From positions 186,001 to 250,000 of the forward strand of contig CANMLW010000005.1 of NCBI GenBank assembly GCA_947498705.1: a stretch of 64,000 nt of DNA, written 5' to 3'. This document shows positions 18,931 through 27,375 of this stretch, piece after piece; positions within the stretch are counted from its first letter, which is position 1; each line of letters opens with the position of its first letter. The notes under the pieces are model-generated. The model was not told where the DNA came from. It worked only from the letters and a program-made list of their open reading frames with translations, and did no database searches. The translations under genes and the position numbers were made by a program. The DNA is from an uncultured Aquimarina sp. GTDB lineage: Bacteria; Bacteroidota; Bacteroidia; Flavobacteriales; Flavobacteriaceae.

Positions 18931-20376
18931 TTAATTATTATCAGAATATCCCACAGCATCACCCAAAAGAGTTGCACTGGTACATTCATTAATATGGACC
19001 ATGACAAAATCACCTATTTTATAATCTCCTTTAGGAAAAACAGCCACCGTATTTTGAGTGGTTCTACCACTCCAGTGTTGATCTGATTTTTTGGACTCCT
19101 TTTCAATCAATATTTCTACTGTTTGTCCAACAAAAGCTTGATGTCTATATTCACTATGGTTGCGTTGCGCTATTATAATTTCGTTAAGTCTCCTTTTTTT
19201 AGTTTCTTCAGGAACATCATCTTCAAGTTTTCGTTCTGCAAGTGTTCCTGGTCTTTCAGAATAAGCAAACATAAAACCGTATTCATATTTTACATATTCC
19301 ATTAATGAAAGAGTGTCTTTGTGATCTTCTTCGGTCTCTGTTGGGAAACCTGTGATAATATCTTGAGAAATAGCACACTCGGGAATAATTCTTTTGATAT
19401 TGTCGATCAAATCGAAATACTCCTGACGGGTGTGTAAGCGGTTCATAGCCTTTAGAATACGATCACTACCACTTTGTATTGGTAAGTGGATGTATTTGCA
19501 AATATTTTTGTGTCTGGCCATTACATTAATAACATCCAATGTCATATCTTGTGGATTTGACGTGGTGAAACGCAATCGTATTTTTGGGTGTTTTTCTGCA
19601 ACCATATCAAGCAATTTTGAAAAATTGACAGCAGTTGCTTTTTGAAAATCACTAGCTTTTTCAAAATCTTTTTTTAACCCACCTCCATACCAAAGGTAGC
19701 TATCTACATTCTGCCCTAATAAGGTTATTTCTTTAAAGTTTTTGTTGGCCAGGTCTTCAATTTCTTCAAGGATACTCTGTGGGTCACGACTGCGTTCTCT
19801 ACCTCTGGTAAATGGTACCACACAAAAAGTACACATATTATCACATCCTCTTGTAATCGAAACAAAAGCCGATACTCCATTGCTTTGTAGGCGTACAGGA
19901 GAGATGTCTCCATAAGTTTCTTCTTTAGAAAGAATAACATTAACAGCATTACGACCTGCGTCTACTTCTTCAATCAGGTTTGGTAAATCTTTATAGGCAT
20001 CTGGACCAACCACGAGATCTACTATTTTTTCTTCTTCAAGAAACTTACTTTTTAATCGTTCTGCCATACATCCCAAAACACCTACTTTCATTTTTGGGTT
20101 GATTCTTTTTACAGCATTGTATTTCTCTAACCTTTTTCTAACGGTTTGCTCTGCTTTTTCTCGAATAGAGCATGTATTTACCAGTACCAAATCTGCATCT
20201 TCAAGATTTTGAGTAGTGTTAAACCCTTCTTTAGAAAGAATAGAGGCGACAATTTCACTATCGCTAAAATTCATCTGACAGCCATAGCTTTCTATAAATA
20301 GTTTACGCTCGTTTTCTTTATTCTGTTCGAGTGCAAGCGGCTGCCCCTGTATGCTTTCGTCAATAATCTTCTCCAT
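18931..20376 (-). CDS. miaB: tRNA-2-methylthio-N6-dimethylallyladenosine synthase MiaB
   Basis: 481 residues in the MiaB order: N-terminal UPF0004 domain with three cluster Cys (SYGCQMN, VNTCSIR, VLGCMAE), a radical SAM domain with CDNMCTFC at ~180, and a C-terminal TRAM domain. It adds the methylthio group to i6A37 in tRNAs reading U-starting codons. The start at 20376 leaves a ~17-residue N-terminal extension before the first motif, which is common in Bacteroidota. Confidence 0.96.
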   Translation of the reverse strand: MEKIIDESIQGQPLALEQNKENERKLFIESYGCQMNFSDSEIVASILSKEGFNTTQNLEDADLVLVNTCSIREKAEQTVRKRLEKYNAVKRINPKMKVGVLGCMAERLKSKFLEEEKIVDLVVGPDAYKDLPNLIEEVDAGRNAVNVILSKEETYGDISPVRLQSNGVSAFVSITRGCDNMCTFCVVPFTRGRERSRDPQSILEEIEDLANKNFKEITLLGQNVDSYLWYGGGLKKDFEKASDFQKATAVNFSKLLDMVAEKHPKIRLRFTTSNPQDMTLDVINVMARHKNICKYIHLPIQSGSDRILKAMNRLHTRQEYFDLIDNIKRIIPECAISQDIITGFPTETEEDHKDTLSLMEYVKYEYGFMFAYSERPGTLAERKLEDDVPEETKKRRLNEIIIAQRNHSEYRHQAFVGQTVEILIEKESKKSDQHWSGRTTQNTVAVFPKGDYKIGDFVMVHINECTSATLLGDAVGYSDNN

Positions 20377-20566
20377 ATAAATATTTCCTTGTCAATTGAA
20401 GTCAAATAGTGTGCAAAGATACTTTTTAAAACGATTTATGACAAAGTGGCAGAAGATTATTTTAAAAAAATCCATAATGAATAGTTAGGCTAATACTTTT
20501 AGCTATCTAAATAGAAGTGAAAATAAGTTTGAATAGAATTCATTTCTCAATAATACGCAAGAATTT

Positions 20567-20704
20567 TTAATAGTTCAGGTAACGAAATTCTGCTGTATCT
20601 TCAAGCATGAAATAATAAATCAAGAAGATCAATGAAACAAACCAAATAACAATCAAGATGTTGGCTGTTTTTTTATTGAAATATTTTAATAAAAATTGAT
20701 ACAT
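20567..20704 (-). CDS. DltX-like one-helix micro-protein (45 aa)
   Basis: A 45-residue ORF starting 2 bp after the MBOAT gene on the same strand. A short basic N-terminus (MYQFLLKYFNKK) is followed by one membrane helix (residues ~14-34) and a short outside tail ending Glu-Phe-Arg-Tyr-Leu-Asn-Tyr at the stop. This end fits F-x-Y-x-x-[F/Y], the C-terminal motif of DltX, whose Tyr carries the acyl group between DltB and DltD in Gram-positive teichoic-acid D-alanylation (established for that system). The same role here is an inference from size, topology, motif and operon position. Confidence 0.75.
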   Translation of the reverse strand: MYQFLLKYFNKKTANILIVIWFVSLIFLIYYFMLEDTAEFRYLNY

Positions 20705-20706
20705 AA

Positions 20707-21834
20707 TTAAGATCCTAACCCTATTAAAAGGGACAATGAATTAATGGCTTGGTAGATATTGTCCTCTTTGATCCAAACAAAACTAAAAATAACAAAATGA
20801 ATACATACGAAAGTTGAAAAAATTCTTGATATCAGATTCATTCGTTTGGGCATTTTTATAGGGGAAAATCTAAGTATACTATCCCATAAAATTATTCCTA
20901 CACCATGAAATACTGCCCATAATATATAGCGTAAAGAAAATTCGTGCCATAACCCTAGTACCAACATGGATATTATAACGGCAATCCAAGGCATACGTGA
21001 ATAAGAAGAAATAGGCATAAAAATATAATCTTTACACCATTCGGATAATGAGATATGCCACCTATTCCAGAAATCAGAAAGATTTTTTGCTAAGAAGGGG
21101 TAATTAAAATTTTCCTTGACTCTAATACCAAGTAAAAGAGAAAAGCCTATAGCAATATCAGAGTATCCTGCAAATTGCATGTAGGTGTTACCGACATAAC
21201 TAATATATTCTAAGTAGGTATTAAGCCAGGAATTGGTCAAAGAATCGGTATAAGAAATGATCTTAAATGAGAAAAAATAATTCCCTAAAACTATAATTTT
21301 AAAGAGTCCATATACTATTCTCTCAAGACCTTTAGAAAATAATTCTTCATCCCATCTTCTTCGGTAGACTTCTCTATTCCAGTCTGATAATCGAATGATG
21401 GGCCCTATTACTAATACCGGAAAAAACAGCATATACCCCATAAATCTTTGGTATTCTATTTCTTGTAAATTCCCTTTGTAAATCTCGATGGTATAGTGAA
21501 TAAGTCTAAATAAGTAAAATGACATTCCTAAGGGAATCGCCTTTTGTAATATACTACTTTGGTTAAAAGAATATTGCCATTTGAAAATAACAAATAATGT
21601 TACCAAAAGTATTAATGTGATGGTAATAGAGTATTTAAAGGAGTTGGTTTTTTTTAATAGAAAATAAGTTATTGAAGAACTGAAAACCAAAATAAATAAT
21701 GATTGACAATCTTGATAAGCTAAAAAAAGTATTGTAAAAGTAGAAATGGAAGTCAGCTGAAATTTTTCAGGTAATTTCCAAGAAAAAAATACACAAGGAA
21801 CCAGAAAAGCAAATAGTATCGCAAGCTCTTTCAT
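20707..21834 (-). CDS. MBOAT-family O-acyltransferase (DltB/AlgI-like)
   Basis: A 375-residue polytopic membrane protein with about ten helices. The MBOAT core is intact: FWNRWHISLSEWCKDYIFMP at ~250-270 and the catalytic His in WAVFHGVG at ~310, preceded by LGLWHEFS. DltB/AlgI members move an acyl group across the membrane from a carrier protein to an extracytoplasmic acceptor. It is shorter than AlgI (~470) and close to DltB (~400). Its neighbours (carrier, SGNH protein, micro-protein) make a Dlt-type pathway the best reading. Confidence 0.92.
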   Translation of the reverse strand: MKELAILFAFLVPCVFFSWKLPEKFQLTSISTFTILFLAYQDCQSLFILVFSSSITYFLLKKTNSFKYSITITLILLVTLFVIFKWQYSFNQSSILQKAIPLGMSFYLFRLIHYTIEIYKGNLQEIEYQRFMGYMLFFPVLVIGPIIRLSDWNREVYRRRWDEELFSKGLERIVYGLFKIIVLGNYFFSFKIISYTDSLTNSWLNTYLEYISYVGNTYMQFAGYSDIAIGFSLLLGIRVKENFNYPFLAKNLSDFWNRWHISLSEWCKDYIFMPISSYSRMPWIAVIISMLVLGLWHEFSLRYILWAVFHGVGIILWDSILRFSPIKMPKRMNLISRIFSTFVCIHFVIFSFVWIKEDNIYQAINSLSLLIGLGS

Positions 21835-21838
21835 TTAT

Positions 21839-22735
21839 TTAATTTTGATTATTGGTTATGTGAGCTCCTAATTCGTTTATAAACCAATTAGTAAATATTT
21901 TTTTTCCATGATTATTCATGTGTTGTGCATCGTAAAAATGATTATATGTAAAAGAGTAATCAAAATTAAAATAATCGAAATGTGTTAAGTTTTTACACCA
22001 GTTCCAATATCCAGAATATTTAATAGAAGATTTAGTTGCTAAGATTCTTTTTTCTATTTGATATGGCCTAGGAATATTTAAGATGATTAATTTAGAATTA
22101 AGTGAATTTAAAATATTCGAAATGTTCTGAATTGTCTTTTTCTTAGGTTGTTTTGATTGTAAATGAGCTAGCCTTTTAGAAACAAGTGCTTCGAACTGAT
22201 CTTGACTTGGCGTAAAAATACCTTTTCTATCACGTTTTTTTTTGTTTCCCAATAAAGCCGAAAAGATTTCTGTTAACCCAACATGGCTTTTTAAATGGTA
22301 CCTTTGGTAAAGTTTATCATTTACTTTGAGCTCATTGAAAAAAGAACTCTCCTGAACGATTAAAACATCAGGTTTGAAAGCCAAAATATCTTCCAGAATA
22401 CCTTGATCGGTTAAATGATCAATCCCTTTAATTGCACCTAAAAACTTAATGGTTGAGGTGTTGATTTTGTGTTTTTTTTTGAGCAATGAATCGATCTCAT
22501 GTGCTTCGGGTATGGCGTCTCTAGATAAAGATGAGCCTATGATTAGTATTCTTAGATTTTTGTTTAAAGAATGGTTTTTGAGAGCGATTTCTTCTTTTAA
22601 ATTATTATGAAAAAACATTTTTTCTCGAGTAGAGAAACGTTCTCCAATATCCTTAGAAAAAAAAGAAATGAACCCTATAAAAACTGCCGAAAGGAGTAAT
22701 ACCCATAACCATATTTTTAATGGCAATGTTGTCAT
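21839..22735 (-). CDS. SGNH-hydrolase-like, DltD-type membrane-anchored protein
   Basis: A 298-residue protein with one N-terminal membrane helix (~8-26) and an outside domain. SGNH blocks are visible: GSSLSRD (~65-71, Ser nucleophile) and DAQHMNNHGKK (~269-279, Asp-x-x-His). This is the plan of DltD and of AlgX/PatB-like O-acetyltransferase partners, which finish acyl transfer onto an external polymer. It overlaps the upstream adenylation gene by 4 bp and precedes the MBOAT gene by 4 bp, which shows tight coupling. Confidence 0.8.
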   Translation of the reverse strand: MTTLPLKIWLWVLLLSAVFIGFISFFSKDIGERFSTREKMFFHNNLKEEIALKNHSLNKNLRILIIGSSLSRDAIPEAHEIDSLLKKKHKINTSTIKFLGAIKGIDHLTDQGILEDILAFKPDVLIVQESSFFNELKVNDKLYQRYHLKSHVGLTEIFSALLGNKKKRDRKGIFTPSQDQFEALVSKRLAHLQSKQPKKKTIQNISNILNSLNSKLIILNIPRPYQIEKRILATKSSIKYSGYWNWCKNLTHFDYFNFDYSFTYNHFYDAQHMNNHGKKIFTNWFINELGAHITNNQN

Positions 22736-24561
22736 CTGGATATCTTATTGTTAACTATTTCTATGGACTTTGAAATAGAATCAATTCCCATAATTTCTTT
22801 AACAGAAATTTCTAAACCAAACTTTTTTTCAATTTGAACTATGAAATCTAAATGAGCAATAGAACTCCAGCCATCAATATCATTTGGACCTAGGTTGATT
22901 TCATAATCTTTGAAGTTGTAATTAAAAGATTCTGAAGCAACCGAAATGATTTTTTCTTTAATATCTCCAGAAGAATGTTTTTCGTTTGATTGTTCTTTTA
23001 CTTTTTTGATTTTTTCAATTACCAGTTCTTTGCTAACTTTTCCTGAAGCAGTGGTAGGAAGTTTGTCGAGAAGATGTATTTCTGATGGTATCTGATTGCA
23101 TAGAAGATTCTCGTTACAAAAAGCTTTAATATCTCCTATTTCTACGTTATCATTTGCACATATAGCAGCAATAATTTTTTCTCCACCAACCTCATTTATT
23201 TCTCCATACACAAATGATTCATGAATCAAAGGACTTTGATTCAAAGTTTCTATAATTTGTTCAGGGTAAATATTAACACCACCAACAATAATTACATTCT
23301 TTTTTCTCCCCTTGATATAATAAAACCCTTCGCTATCCCTTTCTACCAAATCCCCTGTAAAAAACCATCCATTTTGATCTGGATTACTTTTGGGATGCAG
23401 GTATGATTTCATAATGTGTTCTCCTCTAAGAGCTAATTCACCAACTTCATTGTTAAGAATGGTATTGCCATCGGCATCTATTATTTTTGCTTCGCAGTCA
23501 ATAGGTTTTCCGATAGATCCTGGTTTCCAGGTTTCTTCGTCAGGGCCGCAGAAAAGACCACCAGCTACCGTTTCTGTTAGACCATAAACATTAATTAGTT
23601 TCACATCAAATTTGGTCATAAATCTGTTCCAGAAATTTGATTCTAAATTTCCTGCAGAAGAAATTAAATACTTAAACTCTTTTGTGTTAAAATGTTCTTT
23701 TGGGTTTGTAGAAAAACGATCGAACATATAGAGCATAGTTGGCACAACAAAGAAATGCGAAATCTTGTATTTATATATGGTATCTAATAAATCTGGAATT
23801 TTAGAAATTTGATATCGAAAAGGCCTAACGAGTTGTATCGAATTAAACAAAGATAAAATAGGGCCTTGTATAAGTCCATCGACATGAAAGCAAGGAAGAA
23901 TATTTAATAAAACAGAGTCCTTTTTTAATTGATACTGGTTGGAAAGCGTAGCTAGATGAGAAATAATGTTATTATGTGTTAACAAAACACCTTTTGGATC
24001 ACTTGTTGTTCCTGATGTATAGATTAAAAAACATACCGTGTCGGGAGATATATCTGCATAATTATTGTCTTCGACACAGTTTTCGATAGCGCTATCTAAT
24101 GTATTCTCTTGTGTGTTATTTTTTTTTAATAATCTGTTTATGAGTGAGTTTTCTGAGGCTTTTGAAGCTTCGAATACAATATGTTTTTTAGAAGAGTCTA
24201 AACTCCAGTATTCTTCATTTTTTTTATCTATTATCCAACCATCAATTCTGGCGTTGGATAAAATCCCTTTTACTTTATTTTTTTTTGTGTTAGGGTCTAC
24301 GGGAATAACGGTAATACCATTTAGGATCATTGCAAAACACATACAAAACATGTCAAAATCATGACTTAAAGAAAGAAGTATGTTGTCTCCACGTTCTAAT
24401 CCTTTAGATTTTAGAAGAGTGTTTATCTTATTTACTTTTATCGTTAAGTTGGTAAAGAGATATTTTTTGTCTTCAGTAGTTAAAAAAGTATTTCCTTTAA
24501 CTTCGTCTTGAGAGGCAATAGAAAAAGCTTCTTTAAAACTTTTTGGGTAGTGTTTTCCCAT
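22732..24561 (-). CDS. Acyl/aminoacyl-AMP ligase fused to an acyl carrier protein
   Basis: 609 residues. Residues ~1-520 are a complete adenylate-forming enzyme: IYTSGTTSDPKGV P-loop at ~180, YGLTET at ~325, GWFFTGDL and GRKKNVIIVGG, and an intact A10 lysine motif (LPTTASGKVSKE at ~500). Residues ~530-609 are an acyl carrier domain whose phosphopantetheine Ser is in GWSSIAHLDFI (~565). It therefore combines DltA-like activation and DltC-like carriage in one chain. The substrate (amino acid, fatty or aryl acid) cannot be deduced from the sequence by eye. Confidence 0.9.
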   Translation of the reverse strand: MGKHYPKSFKEAFSIASQDEVKGNTFLTTEDKKYLFTNLTIKVNKINTLLKSKGLERGDNILLSLSHDFDMFCMCFAMILNGITVIPVDPNTKKNKVKGILSNARIDGWIIDKKNEEYWSLDSSKKHIVFEASKASENSLINRLLKKNNTQENTLDSAIENCVEDNNYADISPDTVCFLIYTSGTTSDPKGVLLTHNNIISHLATLSNQYQLKKDSVLLNILPCFHVDGLIQGPILSLFNSIQLVRPFRYQISKIPDLLDTIYKYKISHFFVVPTMLYMFDRFSTNPKEHFNTKEFKYLISSAGNLESNFWNRFMTKFDVKLINVYGLTETVAGGLFCGPDEETWKPGSIGKPIDCEAKIIDADGNTILNNEVGELALRGEHIMKSYLHPKSNPDQNGWFFTGDLVERDSEGFYYIKGRKKNVIIVGGVNIYPEQIIETLNQSPLIHESFVYGEINEVGGEKIIAAICANDNVEIGDIKAFCNENLLCNQIPSEIHLLDKLPTTASGKVSKELVIEKIKKVKEQSNEKHSSGDIKEKIISVASESFNYNFKDYEINLGPNDIDGWSSIAHLDFIVQIEKKFGLEISVKEIMGIDSISKSIEIVNNKISR

Positions 24562-24570
24562 ATTTAATGA

Positions 24571-27375
24571 TTATTTAATTGAAATTACAATTTTAGGTAA
24601 ATTTTCATTTCCAAAAGTCGTATTAAGACTTTTTCTTATGTCTAATTCTAATTGCGAATTTTCAGAAACTATATCATTGACCTTTAGATTTACGGTAAAT
24701 TGTTCTATTCCGTTTTCAATAATCTCATGAATGGTAATGTGTTCAACTGCTTTGTTTTTTAGAATACAATTTTTAATGTTTTCACTATATATGATATTTC
24801 CATTTCCGTTTTTAACAAAGTTTTTTCTTCTTCCTTTTAAATAAAAATAATCATCATTGTCTTTGTAAGCTAAGTCATTTGTATAAACAAAACCTTTTTC
24901 GAATCTCACTCCCGAGTGATTTTCAGAATCTAAATATCCGCTAAAATTACGATTGCTAAAAACCCTCAAATTTCCAACCTCACCTGCAGCAACTAAATTA
25001 TCATTATCATCAACAATCTGAACTATTGAATCTATTACGATACCTAGAGATCCTTTTTTGTTTGATGCGATACCGATAGGCTCTGATAAACAAATACCAG
25101 AGGTTTCTGTAAGGCCATAATAATTTAGAATTCTTATGTCAAAAAGTTTTTCAAAATTTTCAATGTATTGATATTCGAGAAATGCTCCCGTACAAATAAC
25201 TTGTTTTAAAGACTCCAGTTGTGGAATAATTTTTTTTCCAAGACCCAAAAACTGATGTATTAATGAAGGAGTAGCTGTAATGATAGAAACTTTATTTCTT
25301 TCTATTTCTTTTATAATTCCAAAAATATTAAAGTTATCATCGATTTTGGGGATTATTATCGAAACTCCGCTGAAAAGTGGGGCAAGGCAAATATTTCGTA
25401 GTCCACTCATTGTGTCAATGCCAGAAGTAATTAATATTCTATCCTTACTACTCCATTTAAAAGTTTGACTGATACATTTTGCGCTACTTATCAGAGCTTG
25501 ATGATTTAGTTTGACACCTTTGGGCTTTCCTGTGGTTCCAGAAGTAAAGAGGATGGTTGATACATCCTGTGATTTGTGTGATATTTCATGAGAAATAATA
25601 TTCGATAAGCCAAGATCATAGATCCAATTCGAAAATAGTTGATTCCTTGTCAACGCTTTGTTAGATTCGTTTTGTGGGTCGAAAATAACTACTTTTTGTT
25701 CGAAGTTTTCAGAGAACTTTTTTTCTGTATCTTGATCAGTAAAAATGATTTTAGGAGAATGATCATTTATAATGTTCTGTATAGCATGGGTGGGCATATC
25801 ATTATGTAAAATAATAGTAGGAATACCTAACGAGGTGGTTGCCCAATACAATATAATGGCTTCAAAATGTATTTTTGAACAAATGACTATATTTTCTGTA
25901 GTACTAATCGAGTCATTAATTAGTTTTTTATGCAATGCATCTATTAAGAAATTGATTTCATCTATCTGTAAGCTCTTTTGATCTGTACTATCATATATAA
26001 TAGGAGTTTTGACGTATTTTTTTTCTGCAAATTTGAGTAAATCTTTAGTTGCTTTAATTTCTAATGGTAAATTAAAGGGATTGTTAGAATGATACTGCTG
26101 TAGTCTTACTGCGTTTGTATGTAAGGGTAGTACATGGATAATTTCAAGAGCTGCTAATTCTTTAATTTCAAGAATAAGTTGATTTATGTTAACTTGGAGT
26201 GTTTCCGAGATTTCTTTTAAAGAATTTCCTTTATTTCCTAAAAAAATAGCACAGGCTTGATTGGTAGTGAGATGGTGTGTTACCAATGGCAGTAATTTAT
26301 TAAGATAAACTTGATGTCTGTCTAATAAATGACCAACCATTCCATTACTTTCGTCTTTGTTGATAGTAGCGGTTTGTGTACTTAAATCAAAACTGAATAA
26401 AGGGTTGGTTAAAATTCGTAAATGCTCTGTGTCAAAATCAAGAAAATCAAAAGGTGTAAGTATGAAATGTTCATATTTTTTTGGAATAAGAGCAATCAAA
26501 GCATTGTAATCGGTGCTTTCGGGATTGTTAGAAATTTGTATTTCTTTAGTAAGTTCAAAAAGTTCAGGTTCAGATAAAATATAGGAATGATGGTCTCGCT
26601 CATTAAAAAAACGTTCGAAATATGCATGATAGTCTTTTCCGAAGAGTTGCTTTTCTCCTCTTTCAAAAAAAGGAATTGGTTCTGAGTTTTTTAAATGTAC
26701 ATGAGGAAAAATAATAAAGCCATCATGCTTGGTTATTCTATTTAATTCAGAGACAATACGAGTTTGGTCATATCTATGTAACGTGTCTAAGCCATAAACA
26801 AGAGAAACAGAATCATTTTTTAGAGGTATTTTTCTATTTAGATCAGAAAAAATAATCTCTACGTTATCAGGTCTGGTCGAACCAGATAGCCAATAATCAA
26901 AGCCGGCATGCCCAAGAACATCCTTGTCTCCTTCCCAAACAGAAATAATTTTTTGGTCAGGAAATAAGGCAGAAAGGAAATAAGTGCTAAACCCGGTTCT
27001 ACACCATGTATCTAAAATTACATCGCCAGGTTTTAAGGCCTTTTTTAATTCATGAATAAACGGATAAAATGCTCTAGAGGATTCATTAAAAGGTTGAAAT
27101 GCAGAATAAATATCTAAGGAAGACTTTTGAAGTTTTAAATCTAAAAAATCCTGATATTTCACTCTTTTTTTTTCTAAGCTACTTTTGCATTCATTTATAT
27201 AACTTTCTGTATTTTTAAAAGTGTTTATTTCTATTTTATTAAAATAAATAATGCCATTTAAAGATGGGACTATTGTATGGCATGTTTTGCATTCTAATGC
27301 ATATGAGGTTTCGTCAATATGACTTATTGAAAACTCGTTGGAACAATTAGTACAAGCATAATTATTCATAATCAA
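24571..27375 (-). CDS. Zinc-ribbon/methyltransferase-like/adenylation fusion protein
   Basis: 934 residues, first gene of the operon. Residues 8-32 form a CxxC-x17-CxxC zinc ribbon. Residues ~110-300 look like a class I methyltransferase, but motif I reads ILDTWCRTGFS in place of D-x-G-x-G-x-G. Residues ~370-435 resemble a winged helix. From ~440 there is an adenylation domain with LFTSGTTGKPKGV, YYGLTETSG and LKGRRKNFVKNG. The chain stops at about the point where the A10 lysine motif should begin, so the catalytic Lys is missing; it may bind an acid or acyl-AMP without full ligase activity. The next gene follows after 9 bp. Confidence 0.8.
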   Translation of the reverse strand: MIMNNYACTNCSNEFSISHIDETSYALECKTCHTIVPSLNGIIYFNKIEINTFKNTESYINECKSSLEKKRVKYQDFLDLKLQKSSLDIYSAFQPFNESSRAFYPFIHELKKALKPGDVILDTWCRTGFSTYFLSALFPDQKIISVWEGDKDVLGHAGFDYWLSGSTRPDNVEIIFSDLNRKIPLKNDSVSLVYGLDTLHRYDQTRIVSELNRITKHDGFIIFPHVHLKNSEPIPFFERGEKQLFGKDYHAYFERFFNERDHHSYILSEPELFELTKEIQISNNPESTDYNALIALIPKKYEHFILTPFDFLDFDTEHLRILTNPLFSFDLSTQTATINKDESNGMVGHLLDRHQVYLNKLLPLVTHHLTTNQACAIFLGNKGNSLKEISETLQVNINQLILEIKELAALEIIHVLPLHTNAVRLQQYHSNNPFNLPLEIKATKDLLKFAEKKYVKTPIIYDSTDQKSLQIDEINFLIDALHKKLINDSISTTENIVICSKIHFEAIILYWATTSLGIPTIILHNDMPTHAIQNIINDHSPKIIFTDQDTEKKFSENFEQKVVIFDPQNESNKALTRNQLFSNWIYDLGLSNIISHEISHKSQDVSTILFTSGTTGKPKGVKLNHQALISSAKCISQTFKWSSKDRILITSGIDTMSGLRNICLAPLFSGVSIIIPKIDDNFNIFGIIKEIERNKVSIITATPSLIHQFLGLGKKIIPQLESLKQVICTGAFLEYQYIENFEKLFDIRILNYYGLTETSGICLSEPIGIASNKKGSLGIVIDSIVQIVDDNDNLVAAGEVGNLRVFSNRNFSGYLDSENHSGVRFEKGFVYTNDLAYKDNDDYFYLKGRRKNFVKNGNGNIIYSENIKNCILKNKAVEHITIHEIIENGIEQFTVNLKVNDIVSENSQLELDIRKSLNTTFGNENLPKIVISIK

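Follow-up and report, generated by a model that had tools for sequence, protein, structure and literature searches.

The DNA analyzed here (the window) is a stretch of 64,000 nucleotides from an uncultured Aquimarina sp. of the Bacteroidota (assembly GCA_947498705.1, contig CANMLW010000005.1, positions 186,001 to 250,000). On its minus strand, from 20567 to 27375, it carries a five-gene operon encoding an adenylation-carrier fusion, an SGNH-fold protein, a short MBOAT, a one-helix microprotein, and a fifth, methyltransferase-like/adenylation protein (Table 1). The existence of the operon is solid; we propose, with a probability of roughly three in four, that its products acylate the cell envelope of a Gram-negative bacterium in a Dlt-like manner without being a Dlt system. 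The fifth-protein gene lies 9 nucleotides upstream of the adenylation-carrier gene, which overlaps the SGNH gene by 4 nucleotides, and gaps of 4 and 2 nucleotides separate the SGNH gene from the MBOAT gene and the MBOAT gene from the microprotein open reading frame (ORF). An earlier note on this DNA had listed four of these ORFs, whose positions, tight packing, and common strand are borne out, but it had overlooked the fifth gene, and the operon is larger than it stated.

Table 1. Genes of the operon, with positions in the window
Feature	Position	Strand	Evidence
Methyltransferase-like/adenylation protein, 934 amino acids, TTG start	24571..27375	-	Pfam AMP-binding 8.5e-50, Methyltransf_11 2.7e-5
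Adenylation domain plus C-terminal carrier domain, 609 amino acids	22732..24561	-	Pfam AMP-binding 8.1e-61
Membrane-anchored SGNH-fold protein, 298 amino acids, DltD-like role (proposed)	21839..22735	-	Invariant residues and AlphaFold model
MBOAT without C-terminal shuttle motif, 375 amino acids, catalytic His297	20707..21834	-	PF03062 1.3e-22
One-helix microprotein, 45 amino acids, C terminus FRYLNY, candidate acyl carrier on Tyr42	20567..20704	-	Conservation, motif position

Related operons in Bacteroidota

Relatives were sought with the adenylation-carrier protein or its alignment, and the sample is therefore not selected for the microprotein motif. Matches were found in 1 of 66 genomes of the genus (itself, E 1e-60), in 4 of 395 genomes of the class (itself included, E 1e-58), in 2 of 13 and 2 of 22 genomes of the family and order of genome G785, in 2 of 64 of the family of G892 (its order comprises the same 64), in 2 of 395 of a phylum sample, and in 1 of 4 of the class of G299; the 395-genome runs scored three candidates per genome, so that misses are possible in them. 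In total, six genomes contain the operon, the window's included. Each of the five further operons (L101, L102, L103, L108, and L110) has homologues of all five genes, and the gene order is common to all except L101, where the MBOAT gene comes before the full SGNH gene and a C-terminal SGNH-like fragment (L101:8234-8545), which looks like a partial duplication, lies between the adenylation-carrier and MBOAT genes. The SGNH and MBOAT genes adjoin each other in all six operons, preserving the MBOAT-SGNH pairing.

The short MBOAT and its proposed separate tail

According to the part of a 2025 paper drawn on here (PMC12148441), bacterial MBOATs of these pathways ordinarily have two extra helices that bear an FxYxxF shuttle motif; DltB, which has no shuttle motif of its own, relies on DltX. 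The loci collected in this work hold 110 distinct MBOAT ORFs, and 99 complete ones were left after removal of nine cut by a locus end and two with broken frames (L040 and L093). The C-terminal pattern is present in 86 of the 99, among them L094, whose N terminus lies in another frame; it counts as an own tail in 85, after discounting L091, a DltB whose match (LDYVKF) was taken as a coincidence. The 14 MBOATs that have no motif themselves comprise the six from the operons, five DltB proteins, one from Leptolinea (L114), and those of L037 and L041. Each of the other five MBOATs found in the window's genome has FIYFQF at its end. The window MBOAT thus alone lacks the motif among those found in this genome, and the gene that follows it codes for a helix with just such a motif; the neighboring microprotein would therefore provide what the tail-less MBOAT lacks, as DltX does for DltB.

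Four of the genome's other MBOATs are clustered within about 50 kb (contig C1, 310 to 361 kb, L050 to L053), and L091 (L091:2935-4343) is a lone dltB on a plasmid from the Lactobacillaceae, where it neighbors the gene for a bactofencin-type bacteriocin. The Lachnospiraceae MBOATs of L037 (L037:1452-2786) and L041 (L041:3185-4543) end in AYMxKGY, not FxYxxF, and that of L037 has WY in place of the catalytic WH; for neither did the locus scan list a one-helix neighbor with the motif, and both are counter-cases.

The one-helix ORF of 45 amino acids reported in the earlier note is present, ends in EFRYLNY, and is the only one of the window's 308 ORFs of 30 to 80 amino acids with the ending F.Y..[FYW]. 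In the other collected loci (overlapping ones kept), 10 of 5625 ORFs share this ending: three copies of the window ORF, four homologues, two annotated DltX proteins, and the split-off tail of a frame-broken long MBOAT. The microproteins of the six operons have 45 to 47 amino acids and are always encoded by the last gene; Met1, Ala14, Leu17, Phe40, Arg41, and Tyr42 are invariant, and the C-terminal FRYxx[Y/W/L] (Y once, W four times, L once) corresponds to the DltX-like FxYxxF, with an aromatic last residue in five. The FRY codons vary synonymously among copies while the residues stay fixed. Both expectations of the earlier note are thus borne out, since the Tyr motif is conserved and the ORF is intact beside the MBOAT gene, with no broken copy, in all six operons found via another gene. 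The N-terminal side is more positive than the C-terminal side in every copy, a charge bias fitting a periplasmic tail.

A purely structural or regulatory role of the microprotein as a subunit of the MBOAT, with the acyl group going directly from the MBOAT to the SGNH protein or the acceptor, is improbable. One DltB study, in the section cited here, left the role of DltX open (PMC11035591); however, the extreme conservation is centered on FRY and not on the helix alone, and the acyl-Tyr mechanism, as far as the cited part of PMC12148441 describes it, is established for PatA, which auto-acetylates the matching Tyr, and reported for DltX.

The window MBOAT scores 81 bits against PF03062 (cut-off, 27 bits), has the catalytic histidine of the family (His297), and matches DltB of known structure at 5.3e-29. 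The best of five AlphaFold models has a predicted local distance difference test (pLDDT) score of 72.9 (the others, 49.5 to 63.0), and its best Foldseek matches are DltB, with a template modeling score of 0.70. In the alignment with DltB, His260 pairs with His289 and His297 with His336, and His297 is invariant in all six operons; His260 and His297 are the conserved histidines, instead of the His-310 named in the earlier note. Against TIGR04091, the DltB equivalog model (cut-off, 375 bits), the window MBOAT reaches 182 bits, two real DltB proteins reach 551.5 and 544.7, and eight long MBOATs reach 142.9 to 184.7. A specifically DltB-like character by profile score was rejected, because the eight long MBOATs (three encoded in the same genome) have similar scores.

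Beyond the Bacteroidota, a Sulfitobacter pontiacus plasmid (L122) carries the four-gene core in the same core order: an adenylation-carrier fusion (25.8% identity over query residues 24 to 604), a hypothetical protein with GTS and DQAH, a 353-amino-acid MBOAT, and an unannotated one-helix ORF of 53 amino acids (L122:9610-9771) that overlaps the MBOAT stop codon and ends in SDQIIYIDLQEAQ. The annotation of the stretch fetched shows no gene for a fifth protein. A Leptolinea (Chloroflexota) plasmid (L114:1771-3370) encodes a tail-less MBOAT of 483 amino acids, starting 4 nucleotides after a 47-amino-acid ORF that ends in WIYQGF, with no carrier gene among the annotated neighbors; judged by its sequence, this is a second DltX-like pairing outside Dlt.

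In phylogenetic trees, the operon MBOATs form one clade (100/99 or 100/98) outside the sampled long MBOATs, and the residue after the catalytic WH is E or Q in the six but G in the 40 other rows of that alignment (including L037, with its WY). In the three-group tree, the split of operon plus DltB from the rest merely restates the cohesion of the sampled long MBOATs. The Leptolinea MBOAT groups with DltB in one tree, with a long-branch warning; the Sulfitobacter MBOAT, which has a long branch, groups with the six with support of 97/99, and no branch of that tree separates the six Bacteroidota rows by themselves from all others. We therefore do not claim a single origin of all split MBOATs.

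These trees also bear on whether the microprotein could be a tail severed from a long MBOAT by damage or misreading, which we regard as highly improbable. L093, a frame-broken long MBOAT with a 42-amino-acid ORF ending in FIYFRF, provides a precedent; however, the six copies, which exclude a sequencing error, each have a start codon of their own, the MBOATs beside them fall outside the long ones in the trees, and 375 plus 45 amino acids is about 50 short of the usual 471. An ancient fission is a possible origin of the microprotein and would leave the mechanism unchanged.

Adenylation proteins and SGNH protein

In all six operons the carrier is fused to the ligase, instead of being a free DltC-type protein; its Gly564, Trp565, and Ser567 are invariant, and Ser567 is the likely phosphopantetheine site. 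The A4 motif of the fusion is [FYH]H[VAS]DG in all six operons, compared with YSFDLS in four of four DltA proteins, so that the FDLS of DltA is absent; from this HxDG, the acyl group is probably other than D-alanine. Position 235, in what we take to be the register for this enzyme class, is V, A, or S, which presumably argues against an alpha-amino acid; the invariant Asp228 falls in the Asp column of DltA in a MAFFT alignment, and the fusion may thus still use an amino substrate despite the A4 motif. Of the chains whose structures are known, the closest are oxalate-, fatty-acyl-, succinylbenzoate-, and malonyl-CoA ligases and a gramicidin synthase module, which point to no particular substrate. 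A class III aminotransferase is encoded directly upstream in L110, one of the six operons only.

The fifth protein begins with a zinc-ribbon-like segment, followed by a methyltransferase-like domain, which by inspection lacks the usual glycine-rich loop, and an AMP-binding (adenylation) domain. The AMP-binding domain is found in all six homologues and a methyltransferase match in two of them. The window copy stops before the A10 lysine (region 24571-24620) that is kept in the five others; it may have lost adenylation or depend on a partner. A plasmid search with this protein returned four records, which match the adenylation part only.

In the SGNH protein, GSS (67 to 69) and Asp-x-x-His (Asp269 to His272) are invariant in six of six homologues, and its AlphaFold model (pLDDT 69.6) matches SGNH acylhydrolases, with DltD at rank 7. 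Pfam DltD matches none of the six at E values up to 1; the SGNH-like fold agrees with the SGNH/DltD-like anchored protein described in the earlier note, although Pfam does not place it in the DltD family. As a means of locating the family, the SGNH protein was rejected, having retrieved 1 of 395 genomes (itself) at E 1e-4 although G299 also has the gene; a plasmid search with it gave zero matches.

A proposed acyl relay and known systems

On this conserved neighborhood, the conserved motif, and the observed pairing of a tail-less MBOAT with a microprotein that bears a tail, we build a relay of which every chemical step, the acid, and the acceptor are inferred. The adenylation domain would activate a carboxylic acid with ATP and load its own fused carrier at Ser567, and the carrier would bring the resulting thioester to the short MBOAT at its cytoplasmic face. 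Via His297, the MBOAT would transfer the acyl group to Tyr42 of the microprotein, whose tail would stand in for the built-in C-terminal tail of ordinary bacterial MBOATs; the anchored SGNH protein would then accept the group on its GSS serine, together with Asp269 and His272, and hand it on to a glycan in the periplasm or at the surface. The fifth protein may supply, modify, or help activate the acid. This relay through a split-off tail is the best-supported reading.

Several observations weigh against it. Pfam DltX (PF12459) has no match in the six microproteins at E values up to 10 (HMMER filters drop weak ones), with the L. curvatus DltX scoring 72.6, and the single Pfam match of the microprotein is to a transmembrane stretch of another family, below the cut-off; the last motif residue is Leu in L110, and the Sulfitobacter motif, IIYIDL, lies four residues before the end. 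The loop in which DltB holds its carrier-docking helix for DltC (according to the section of PMC11035591 cited above) is shorter in the operon MBOATs, and Pfam PP-binding reaches only E 0.025 on the carrier domain, below its cut-off. The SGNH assignment, of moderate strength, rests on four residues and a moderate-confidence model whose top structural match is a designed scaffold. Two plasmid dltABCD operons (L089 and L092) have a tail-less DltB and no DltX-like ORF within the stretch fetched; a tail-less MBOAT therefore need not have a neighboring microprotein.

Profile comparison of the microproteins with two DltX proteins and the Leptolinea ORF gave a probability of 5% over only 15 helix columns. 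Comparison with the last 60 residues of 14 long MBOATs placed helix, spacing, and FxY in register (E 0.0017 for one comparison; probability, 15%), and this resemblance to the last helix of long MBOATs is suggestive only. The DltX family gave three weak matches, none above the cut-off, in the 42 genomes behind the collected loci, and a PHROGs search gave little. As DltX homology is not detectable, the support covers a protein that works like DltX and not one that is DltX; the DltX-type microprotein of the earlier note holds in the former sense, through the FRY tail and the tail-less MBOAT.

A true Dlt system, acquired from Gram-positive bacteria and adding D-alanine to an envelope polymer, would have the same set of functions, and blastp matches to Dlt proteins (1e-34 for the MBOAT, 4e-24 for the adenylation domain), Asp228 in the DltA Asp column, and the low G+C of the operon speak for it. 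The G+C content is 0.29 to 0.32 in 2-kb segments starting from 20000 to 27000, compared with 0.33 to 0.37 in the other segments scanned, which would fit a foreign origin. We nevertheless consider this origin and identity decidedly improbable: the DltB model score is on a par with that of long MBOATs and far from the 545 to 552 bits of real DltB, the microprotein and the SGNH protein match neither Pfam DltX nor DltD, the A4 motif is HxDG, and the MBOATs form their own clade. Since five Dlt features (matches to the DltB, DltX, and DltD models, FDLS, and a free carrier) are absent, the operon is not filed under Dlt. The Dlt-like relay on another polymer envisaged in the earlier note is supported, neither loss of the Tyr motif nor a disrupted microprotein ORF having been found, whereas identity with Dlt fails the family tests.

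It is rather unlikely that the same relay yields an acylated lipid, small molecule, or protein in place of a glycan. The two adenylation domains and the methyltransferase-like domain do resemble secondary metabolism, and in the flanks scanned the window operon does not adjoin glycan genes: downstream lies a MiaB-like gene (named from its sequence), and upstream, on the opposite strand, a 260-amino-acid ORF without a Pfam match and a topoisomerase gene. However, the Sulfitobacter core adjoins glycosyltransferase genes, and the MBOAT/SGNH pairs named in the cited part of PMC12148441 act on envelope polymers. A promoter scan was uninformative (25 promoter-like sites, against 40.1 in shuffles).

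The relay onto a glycan would predict an envelope modification not yet known in some Bacteroidota and Sulfitobacter. More tentatively, and at somewhat less than even odds, microprotein-partnered MBOATs may be a separate branch of bacterial envelope acylation with Dlt as only its Gram-positive representative; in its Gram-negative form, the operon's second adenylation/methyltransferase-like enzyme would make or tailor an acyl group that is neither acetyl nor D-alanine, a ligase-tethered carrier would hold it, and the microprotein tyrosine would relay it to a surface glycan. The operon family also lends itself to testing the acyl-Tyr shuttle in an independent natural setting: its tail, being a separate protein of 45 amino acids, can be mutated or added in peptide form. 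Among the literature matches listed, judged by title and start of abstract and with subscription papers mostly outside their scope, none describes such a module. The Bordetella dra locus is a Gram-negative dlt-like locus.

Like Dlt, the operon combines an adenylation enzyme, a carrier, a tail-less MBOAT, an SGNH protein, and a one-helix microprotein with a C-terminal FxYxx[aromatic]. It differs from Dlt in its fused carrier, A4 motif, extra fifth protein, and Gram-negative host, and in FRY where Dlt has FIY; moreover, none of its microprotein, MBOAT, and SGNH protein qualifies under the Dlt family models. A Metabacillus sp. B2-18 plasmid (L117:302-4630) encodes a carrier, an AMP-binding protein, an MBOAT, and a hypothetical protein, the carrier and ligase genes adjoining the MBOAT gene as in the operon; there, however, the carrier is separate and comes without a microprotein, and the MBOAT keeps its own tail, FIYGGF. 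Systems of the PatA/PatB kind, which O-acetylate peptidoglycan, and of the AlgI, WssH, and CcsH kinds share the MBOAT, the SGNH protein, and the acyl-Tyr tail motif, and the part of PMC12148441 considered here describes MBOAT/SGNH pathways other than Dlt as having neither a carrier nor a DltX-like microprotein. Set against that description, the operon family appears to be an exception on both counts, with carrier and microprotein in Gram-negative bacteria and the carrier fused to the ligase: whereas those systems keep the tail inside the MBOAT and use an acyl-CoA donor, the operon encodes tail and carrier apart from the MBOAT.

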